DNA from: Methylococcus sp. Mc7
GTDB lineage: Bacteria; Pseudomonadota; Gammaproteobacteria; Methylococcales; Methylococcaceae
Direction: 5' to 3'
Length of the DNA stretch: 64,000 nucleotides
NCBI RefSeq assembly: GCF_019285515.1
Contig: NZ_CP079095.1
Span: 806,001 to 870,000, forward strand
The notes under the pieces were generated by a model, which worked only from the letters and a program-made list of their open reading frames with translations, was not told the origin of the DNA and made no database searches. Within the stretch, counting starts at the first letter, position 1; the number at the start of each line of letters is the position of its first letter. Positions 3,912 through 5,612 of this stretch are shown here, one piece after another. The translations under genes and the position numbers were made by a program.

Positions 3912-5612
3912 ATGACGAAATACATCTTCATCACCGGCGGAGTCGTGTCGTCGCTGGGTAAAGGCATCGCCGCATCCTCCCTCGCCGCGATCCTCGAGGC
4001 GCGGGGGCTGAAAGTCACGTTGACGAAGCTCGATCCCTACATCAACGTCGATCCGGGCACCATGAGCCCGTTCCAGCACGGCGAGGTGTTCGTGACCGAG
4101 GACGGCGCCGAGACCGACCTCGACCTGGGCCATTACGAACGCTTCGTCCGCACCACCATGGGCAAGGCGAACAGCTTCACCACCGGCCAGATCTACGAGA
4201 ACGTGATCCGTAAGGAACGCCGCGGCGAATACCTCGGCGCCACCGTGCAGGTCATTCCCCACATCACCGACGAGATCAAGCGCGGCATCCGCCTCAGCGC
4301 GGAAGGGTATGACGTAGCCCTGATCGAGATCGGCGGCACCGTGGGCGACATCGAATCCCTCCCCTTCCTGGAGGCGATCCGCCAGATGCGGGTCGACCTG
4401 GGCGAAGAGCGTTCGCTGTTCATCCACCTGACCCTGGTGCCCTACATTTCCAGCGCCGGCGAGTTGAAGACCAAGCCGACCCAGCATTCGGTCAAGGAAC
4501 TGCGCACCATCGGCATCCAGCCGGACATCCTGATCTGCCGCTCCGACCGTCCCATCCCGAAGAGCGAATGCCGCAAGATCGCGCTGTTCACCAACGTGCA
4601 GGAAGACGCGGTCATCGCCTCGGTCGACGCCGACACCATCTACCGGATTCCGAGTCTCCTGCACGAGCAGCAGCTCGACGAGATCGTCGTCCGCAAGCTG
4701 CGGCTCGATGCCGGCCCCGCCGACCTGAGCGAATGGCATCACGTGGTGGACGCGCTCAAGAATCCGGAGCGCTCGGTCACCATCGCCATGGTGGGCAAGT
4801 ACGTCAACCATTCCGACGCCTACAAGTCCTTGAGCGAAGCCCTGGTCCATGCCGGCATCCATACCCGCACCCGGGTCGACATCCGCTTCATCGAGTCCGA
4901 GGAAATCGAGGACCACGGGACGGACGCGCTGGAAGGGGTCGATGCCATCCTGGTACCGGGCGGCTTCGGCGAGCGCGGCATCGAAGGCAAGATCGCCACG
5001 GTGAAATACGCCCGTGAGAACCGTATCCCCTACCTCGGCATCTGCTTAGGCATGCAGGTGGCCGTGATCGAATTCGCCCGCAACGTGGCCAAGCTGGAAG
5101 GCGCGCACAGCACCGAGTTCCTGCCCTCCTCGCCGCATCCGGTCATCGCCCTCATCACCGAGTGGAAGACCGAGACCGGCGGCATCGAATACCGCAGCGG
5201 CAATTCGGACCTGGGTGGCACCATGCGTCTGGGCGGACAGAAATGCCGGCTGATTCCCGACACCCTGGCCCACGACACCTACGGCAAGGACGTGATCACC
5301 GAGCGGCACCGCCACCGCTACGAATTCAACAACCATTACCTCAAGACCCTGGAAGCGGCGGGCCTCAAGGTCTCCGGCAAATCGCTGGACGGGCGCCTGG
5401 TGGAGATGGTGGAGATTCCCGGCCATCCCTGGTTCCTGGCCTGCCAGTTCCATCCCGAATTCACTTCCACGCCGCGTAGCGGCCACCCGCTGTTCAGCGG
5501 TTTCGTCCGCGCGGCCTGCGCCCATAGCGAGGACACAGCACACCCGAAGAGCGGCGGAGCCGACCCGAAGAGCGGCGGAGCCGACCCGAAGAGCGGCGGA
5601 GCCGAATCATGA
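3912..5612 (+). CDS. pyrG: CTP synthase
   Basis: Cytosolic amidotransferase converting UTP, ATP and glutamine to CTP. The start is the ATG at 3912 giving [10 protein letters not shown]. The synthase domain begins with [11 protein letters not shown] (residues 8-18). The class I glutaminase domain has the catalytic Cys in YLGICLGMQ (about residues 376-384) and the His-Glu of the triad in FHPEF near 515. At 566 residues it is about 20 longer than the E. coli enzyme; the extra C-terminal tail is three copies of a heptapeptide reading PKSGGAD, encoded by perfect 21-bp tandem repeats. The stop overlaps the kdsA start (ATGA), so the two are probably one transcript. Confidence 0.97.
5543..5605 (+). 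repeat. Three perfect tandem copies of a 21-bp unit in the pyrG 3' end
   Basis: The unit begins CCCGAAGAGCGGCGG and ends AGCCGA; copies are at 5543-5563, 5564-5584 and 5585-5605. It is translated in frame as PKSGGAD-type heptapeptides at the tail of PyrG. A close variant is found twice in the ispD 5' end and twice at 48413-48454. Confidence 0.95.

Follow-up and report, generated by a model that had tools for sequence, protein, structure and literature searches.

REPINs are doublets of REP sequences that are accompanied by a REP-associated tyrosine transposase, the RAYT (PMC8266576, PMC3733652, PMC6006769, PMC3116915). The spread of REPs and REPINs has been called poorly understood (PMC8266576), and REPs located inside genes are known, DNA polymerase I being among these genes (PMC3733652). 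The repeat family of Methylococcus described here resembles this system, as portrayed in the passages of these reports that deal with REPs, by its GTAG-footed palindromes that form inverted pairs, by their dispersal between genes and by a RAYT with the same REP on its two sides. It differs in having a 21-bp minisatellite as spacer and in that the spacer unit, and not the REP, occurs solo in genes. The BrickBuilt MITE of Porphyromonas gingivalis shares with it a tandem short unit (23 bp) in a miniature element, whereas the relevant passages of its description (PMC4596501) present it as always intergenic, with IS-like terminal repeats, and report no lone units in genes. The Rickettsia palindromic elements (RPE) are likewise short repeats found in frame in unrelated genes; in the excerpts that describe them (PMC3733652, PMC10969869) they are palindromic and of about 150 bp, whereas the Methylococcus unit is 21 bp long, tandem and not palindromic alone. 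REPINs, RAYTs, intragenic REPs and a minisatellite MITE are known; what seems to be new is that the spacer unit of a REPIN is found solo in genes as well. No published account of the 21-bp repeat of Methylococcus was found in the literature searched, where the matches listed for Methylococcus together with RAYT were judged by title.

The SDR class is defined by dispersed repeats of 20-30 bp, with empty sites in relatives and with units predicted to adopt a characteristic secondary structure. In Nostoc, the SDRs described by Elhai in 2008 are said to be 21-27 bp long, dispersed, located within minitransposons and recently mobile without a gene of their own; they are reportedly folding units, for which an RNA step was suspected. 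The Methylococcus unit has the size, the dispersal and the empty sites in relatives that are attributed to these SDRs. Unlike them, it lacks a stable fold (z 1.00), it is present as solo units in genomes free of reverse transcriptase (RT) and it forms tandem arrays in coding genes.

The window, which is the whole stretch of 64 kb that was analysed, belongs to the genome of Methylococcus sp. Mc7 (G000; 4.0 Mb, single contig), and five relatives of the same genus were designated G001 to G005. A sequence-only reading of the window had reported three tandem PKSGGAD units at the end of CTP synthase, a one-base variant present twice at the start of IspD and another variant present twice in an intergenic element near 48413. 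These three arrays were all recovered (Table 1). TRF gave 3.0 perfect copies for pyrG (5542-5605), 2.1 for ispD (8229-8272) and 2.1 for the intergenic array (48411-48454); relative to the pyrG unit, the ispD unit has one mismatch and the 48411 unit has four. In the phase GACCCG...GCC, the first base of the pyrG unit 1 is C and not G. With up to three mismatches, the pyrG unit has five matches in the window for 0.00 expected (100 dinucleotide shuffles). The 48411 array is part of a hairpin that folds far better than its shuffles (z -8.06), and no stable fold was found for the single unit compared with shuffles (-1.5 kcal/mol; z 1.00 and 0.85). The drifted unit at 10912 is at the start of a gene of the flavodoxin/FMN-reductase family (Pfam PF03358) and is either an old copy or a chance likeness; the 21 bp are present at this site also in G003, G005, G001 and G004, and in G002 as judged by length. 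Elsewhere in the window, a 17-bp unit, GTTGTGGGAGCGGCTCC, is repeated three times at a gene end (12253-12304); no other copy of this 17-mer was noticed in the window. The preceding gene tail of about 40 bp is repeated after this array (CCCTTTCATCAAGAG..CATCGCATGA), which looks like an insertion with flank duplication.

Table 1. Features of the 64-kb window related to the 21-bp unit (positions of the window).
Feature	Position	Strand	Basis and remarks
pyrG (CTP synthase)	3912..5612	+	Translation; Pfam PF06418 CTP_synth_N, PF00117 GATase; array at 3' end
pyrG solo array, 3 units GACCCGAAGAGCGGCGGAGCC (unit 1 first base C)	5541..5603	+	TRF; peptide PKSGGAD
ispD	8220..8966	+	Translation; Pfam PF01128 IspD; array at 5' end
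ispD solo array, 2 units GACCCGAAGAGCGGCGAAGCC	8229..8270	+	TRF; peptide DPKSGEA
Drifted single unit GACTCGAAGCGCAGCAGCGCC	10912..10932	+	Second codon pair of ORF 10906-11523; peptide DSKRSSA
Outer MITE-like repeat, left end CTGTCTTGAAAAA	48311..48323	+	Outer flanks recur at other G000 arrays
REP 1 GTAGGGTGGATAAGCGTAGCGCATCCACC, GTAG foot	48374..48402	+	Part of hairpin
REPIN spacer array, 2 units GACTCGAAGAGCAGCGAAGCT, intergenic hairpin	48411..48452	+	TRF
REP 2, inverted (GGCGGATGCGCTGCCGCTTATCCGCCCTAC on +)	48459..48488	-	Second arm of REPIN
Outer MITE-like repeat, right end TTTTTCAAGACAG	48503..48515	-	Sequence comparison

Further copies are numerous in G000. The consensus unit GACTCGAAGAGCRGCGRAGCY has 109 matches with up to two mismatches and 114 with up to three, the reversed control giving none; 109 of the 114 matches fall in the loci read, and at least one of the remaining five is the copy of locus L272. 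By hand count, the 37 arrays read (108 units) comprise 24 spacers of inverted pairs of GTAG-type REPs and 13 solo arrays. No REP was found beside any of the 13 solo arrays of G000, and for this reason they were not classed as REPINs. The REP arms of the 24 arrays are inverted GTAGGGTGGATAAGCGNAGCGCATCCACC or close variants, and the REP foot is of the GTAG type (GTAGGGTGGATAAGCG...), some copies deviating from it (e.g. GCAG at the RAYT of G005). Array 895384 lacks its own left REP and has the arm of its neighbour on this side. The 22 REPIN arrays of the 24 that were parsed by script contain 1-6 units each, and one REPIN of G005 contains 14 units. The 21-bp unit serves as spacer repeat in a REPIN family of Methylococcus, in which 1-14 tandem units lie between inverted GTAG REPs. 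The REP arm occurs 29 times in the G000 genome with up to three mismatches; according to our own count, these are 21 first arms of array elements, two second arms, five copies beside Y1-transposase genes and one lone array-free REP (432827). Array-free REPINs (spacer pattern of 0-28 nt) were found in none of the six genomes, in a weak test restricted to exact arms. The repeat had been taken for a spreading minisatellite-like element; dispersal and variation in copy number hold (114 units, orthologous sites differing by 0 or 21n bp), but a free minisatellite does not, since 24 of the 37 arrays are REPIN spacers and the REP belongs to a RAYT.

Concerning its taxonomic range, the unit is nearly restricted to Methylococcus. 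Among 40 relatives searched with up to two mismatches, the five Methylococcus genomes were all positive (1, 6, 20, 21 and 34 matches, with 109 in G000), and outside the genus G013 and G016 alone had a match, one each. With up to one mismatch, the unit was found in none of 368 other genomes of the same class. No REPIN match was obtained in plasmid records; in viral contigs, the two-unit junction gave one exact match. The closest ispD among named contigs is that of M. capsulatus Texas (88%), and the ends of its ispD and pyrG resemble those of G004. In distant lineages no ancestral peptide was encountered: the pyrG tails outside the genus lack it in the four readable cases (L087, L088, L089, L091) among nine loci looked at out of 80, of which four others had no readable tail and one was from the genus.

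An intact RAYT gene is located in G000 between inverted REP copies (2017232-2017857; PF01797 match at 2017317). It reaches 201.8 bits with NF047646, and the G005 copy 188.9 bits, for a cut-off of 80; we take the HLH of the segment VVMPDHLHCIW to be the HuH motif. A second RAYT of G000 (2121067-2121689; PF01797 at 2121149), also with inverted REP flanks, contains an in-frame stop, and the G002 copy contains two. In a tblastn search over the fetched loci, close RAYT copies (89-95%) were detected in G000, G002 and G005, all between inverted REPs, and the other RAYT relatives, in G001, G002 and G005, reached just 45-49%. No RAYT of the REPIN type was found in G003 and G004 by a whole-genome search with PF01797, which returned two and one non-matching hits, respectively. 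In the region 3' of exbD, after GGTCAGCAG, REP-RAYT-REP is present in the second operon copy of G000 and in G002, and REP-[one unit]-REP is present in G003; the same site has thus been occupied in different species by a RAYT cassette or by a unit-bearing REPIN. The first exbD operon copy of G000 has neither RAYT cassette nor REPIN. The two exbD of locus L255 (G000:2106000-2122000) encode 100% identical proteins and are 12.8 kb apart, with a RAYT after the second only. Five of the 13 solo sites, or five of 15 when drifted ones are counted, are within 64 kb of the exbD RAYT, a post hoc count.

Other transposase genes were noticed beside the family. An IS200-like Y1 transposase gene of the window (13448-13900; PF01797, 49.5 bits, weak helix-turn-helix match) is not the RAYT of the REPIN; a copy of equal score lies at G000:1990572, and a similar one at 1771953. 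In G005, the loci L207 (1-1201) and L209 (1-1301) have a repeated IS-like context with one unit, together with separate units (e.g. GACTCGCAGAGCAACGAAGTT) near a transposase-like frame that is presumably IS481-like.

At least 10 of the 13 solo arrays lie within protein genes or at their ends; there each copy corresponds to seven residues and the frame is kept. The reading frame was settled by Pfam for 10 arrays, those at 2057508, 2072825 and 2411709 being left out. The sense frame D-x-K-S-x-x-A is used in seven of the 10: pyrG, ispD, tonB and the genes of a dynamin-like GTPase, a DUF6513 protein (9 units), a DUF447 protein (2 units) and a TonB-dependent receptor (13 identical units). The antisense strand is read as SSAALRV in two genes: thiD (array within the kinase domain) and a second TonB-dependent receptor (array in its N-terminal part). 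In the DUF3450 gene it is read as SAPLLSES. The single frame noted earlier for pyrG and ispD is thus not general. An assignment of all 13 arrays to a D-S-K frame was dropped, Pfam having put three genes on the other strand. More coding arrays are present in the relatives; judging from its translation, the gene with an array at 3361566 of G002 is presumably polA. The GC skew at 20 stretches and other loci places the skew changes roughly, and with these 11 of the 13 solo arrays are lagging-wise (one-sided 0.011), a value that is not relied on.

The orthologous sites of the six genomes differ mostly by 0 or 21n bp, for instance with 13/2/0 or 9/2/1/0 copies (Table 2). The array at 2411709 has no orthologue with both flanks in the five Methylococcus relatives. 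For ispD, the automatic gap lengths mislead because the units sit either in ispD or in the tail of the upstream gene, which we take to be ftsB-like; this tail contains an identical unit in G002, a degenerate one in G001 and perhaps one in G005. The in-frame insertion into pyrG and ispD that had been proposed agrees with the 0 or 21n differences between relatives, and copy number varies as expected, pyrG having no copy in G002 and G003. These insertions are not fresh, as indicated by the degenerate single copies of pyrG in three relatives and by the single copies in ispD or in the ftsB-like tail of four (two exact, two degenerate). The pyrG and ispD arrays are thus an older variant (GACCC...GCC) amplified in G000.

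Table 2. Copies of the unit at orthologous sites (dash, gap length not divisible by 21).
Site	G000	G002	G003	G004	G005	G001	Remarks
thiD	1	0	0	0	1	-	G001 gap -3
DUF6513	9	2	0	0	1	0	
DUF447	2	1	1	1	2	0	
Dynamin	1	1	0	1	2	-	G001 gap -9
TonB receptor	13	2	-	0	-	0	G003 gap +6, G005 gap -30
tonB	1	1	0	1	1	-	G001 gap +30
Cytochrome 5' end	1	0	1	1	1	not found	
Receptor signal region	1	1	1	1	1		G001: one flank only
pyrG	3	0	0	1	1	1	G001, G004, G005 units degenerate
ispD (within ispD)	2	0	1	0	1	0	G005 unit degenerate
DUF3450	1	not found	not found	+24 bp	1	not found	
2072825	1				1		Elsewhere not found with both flanks

The reciprocal search covered 15 sites, two of them without a readable fetched locus in any genome and several readable in their own genome only. 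The site G003:3002526 has a clean empty allele in G002 (-18 bp in G001 and G004), and G005:2770039 has one in G000. The site G003:1719354 is filled in G003 and G001 and empty in G000, G004 and G005, and also in G002, where 180 bp correspond to the empty state; this pattern implies that loss or exchange happens too, recurrent insertion being also among the options. The unit of this site (L071) and that of L281 in G001 are identical and occupy the same coding site in distant species, the species between them being empty. The sites G003:3343769 (10912 of the window) and G002:2778059 are old and drifted, and are filled in most genomes. Two pairs of empty and filled alleles display the insertion point (shown by a slash or by the unit in brackets): TGTCT/GAGACG in G002 and TGTCT[21]GAGACG in G003, with flanks 95-96% identical, and CCACT/GAAGCG in G000 and CCACT[21]GACTCC in G003. 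Some filled alleles have GACTCC or GAATCC after the array where the empty ones have GAAGCG, and the copying may extend a few bases into the next unit. In total, at least 19 changes are needed over 11 sites (tree from one region of 5,875 columns; hand-typed presence table).

The target was analysed at recent-type solo sites, defined by a unit without change outside the positions that vary in REPINs. This set leaves out pyrG, ispD, orthologous repeats and drifted sites, and comprises 20 distinct sites (11 in G000, five in G003, two in G002 and two in G005). The bases following the array are GA at 19 sites and GC at one; the two preceding bases are CC (9), CT (5), CG (3), CA (1), AG (1) and GA (1), with C at position -2 in 18 of 20. 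GA also follows at the nine drifted solo sites (9/9). In the 0-bp empty alleles, GA is already present at 9 of 15 sites (hand count including pyrG and two poorly aligned sites), for a frequency of 6.7% of dinucleotides (P 9e-8; this and all other P values are post hoc). The presence of GA on both sides of a solo unit could be a 2-bp target duplication or microhomology. The last base is T in 20/20 recent-type solo units versus 14/22 last REPIN units (P 0.004). This excess becomes 27/29 when the nine drifted sites are added (P 0.013) and 27/32 when pyrG, ispD and the ftsB-like tail are added too (P 0.11), and it therefore depends on which sites are chosen. The last base of the tonB unit of G004 is C.

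Except for three single exceptions, the 67 REPIN units vary only at positions 7, 13, 17 and 21. In G000, the solo units that are distinct site by site number 12 (without pyrG and ispD); they have nine changes relative to the core, which fall without exception at positions 7, 13 or 17; at the same sites in relatives, 25 distinct units have 25 changes outside the variable positions (pyrG and ispD removed by hand). As the search for G000 sites had relied on likeness to the pool, the comparison was kept to units with at most one outside change, giving 12 units with none and 0 with one in G000, and 7 and 11, respectively, in relatives (P 6e-4). For the same reason, the clean state of the G000 units is partly ascertainment. 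When pyrG and ispD are included, G000 has four outside changes in 15 units, and the drifted coding copies at 816912 (10912 of the window) and in L272, found via relatives only, have three each by our count. We take these data to mean that REPINs have recently exchanged sequence with many coding copies, although not with all, in G000, the genome richest in REPINs.

The reading that we favour, with a probability of about 45%, is that units of the REPIN spacer disperse to genes, cleavage at CT by the RAYT being the best, although unproved, machinery. Single units or short runs would exit the pool of REPIN spacers and be inserted elsewhere as exactly 21n bp, with C-N before and GA after the insertion; both orientations and several reading frames would be used. 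As 21 bp are seven codons, coding insertions would persist where the heptapeptide is tolerated (termini, linkers, loops), and arrays in place would then expand or contract by tandem duplication or slippage. The machinery would be the RAYT of the same REP family, an HuH single-strand transposase. Recent-type solo units end with ...GCT/GA; cuts 21 nt apart would free strands of 21n nt, which would join at C-N/GA sites. According to the passages of PMC8266576 on its activity, TnpAREP cuts single-stranded DNA at CT, the choice of site being linked to GTAG. Such a reaction would agree with the boundaries and targets of the units, and also with the grouping of solo units near the exbD RAYT. Several observations argue against this step. 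G003 and G004 have no matching RAYT and yet contain solo units, those of G003 at sites empty in relatives; the six units of G004 all correspond to solo sites of G000, and REPINs contain none of them. The same passages describe TnpAREPs as acting beside a REP (PMC8266576), whereas solo units have no REP, and CC (9) is commoner than CT (5) at positions -2/-1, against targeting by CT. The two genomes in which this RAYT was not found, the solo sites without REP and the CC-ended older units keep the RAYT step at slightly less than even odds. In its most specific form, this reading would have the RAYT moving single 21-nt spacer units besides whole REPINs, to C-N/GA, neutral to the frame by their length and refreshing old copies, which we propose only tentatively.

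A spread without enzyme is a possible, if doubtful, alternative: template switching, or slipped or microhomology repair, at a 4-nt CYGA junction would copy the unit from a REPIN, and the RAYT would move whole REPINs only. The target C-Y/GA is indeed identical to the junction of the array itself (GC[CT]/GA), slippage is required anyway for tandem growth (13 identical units), and G003 and G004 fit this explanation, no matching RAYT having been found there. It leaves unexplained the T ends of recent-type sites, an objection that is weaker once older sites are added, and gives no reason why this 21-bp repeat in particular should spread, when the 4-nt match to CYGA is very common (1.05% of positions). 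We consider it improbable that all insertions are old, the genus ancestor having been filled by an extinct process followed by loss, amplification and RecA gene conversion from REPINs. Several sites are common to 4-5 of the six genomes, a single change suffices by parsimony for cyt, tonB and DUF447, conversion would account for the clean units of G000, and the drifted copies at 10912 and in L272 are old. However, conversion across 21 bp with unrelated flanks seems improbable, and both the clean empty alleles in close relatives at G003:1719354, G003:3002526 and G005:2770039 and the number of changes over the 11 sites argue against it.

Movement through RNA and reverse transcription, as was reportedly proposed for the SDRs of Nostoc, would agree with the size of the unit and with the RT genes detected, two in G000 and one in two pieces in G005. 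RVT_1 was found in none of the four genomes G001-G004, which nevertheless contain solo units, and one unit by itself does not fold stably (z 1.00, 0.85), so that this route is very unlikely. The least probable explanation is that the heptapeptide was selected as a flexible or charged tag for its proteins: the frame D-x-K-S-x-x-A prevails in 7/10 settled coding arrays and CYGA is in the codon phase of this frame in 39/68 cases in four window genes, but three frames are used, most arrays are intergenic, and the peptide is missing from orthologues of the same enzymes, pyrG and ispD being without the unit in close relatives.

The Methylococcus family preserves a natural record in which sites are found empty or filled and both the target and the unit are defined, and cultured strains exist for this genus of methanotrophs. 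The question of what a RAYT moves, and where to, thereby becomes directly testable. Protein genes of this genus gain seven residues per copy from a repeat of just 21 bp. If the dispersal of spacer units by the RAYT is true, the single 21-nt unit would be about the smallest DNA known to move, and it would be able to decorate essential enzymes.
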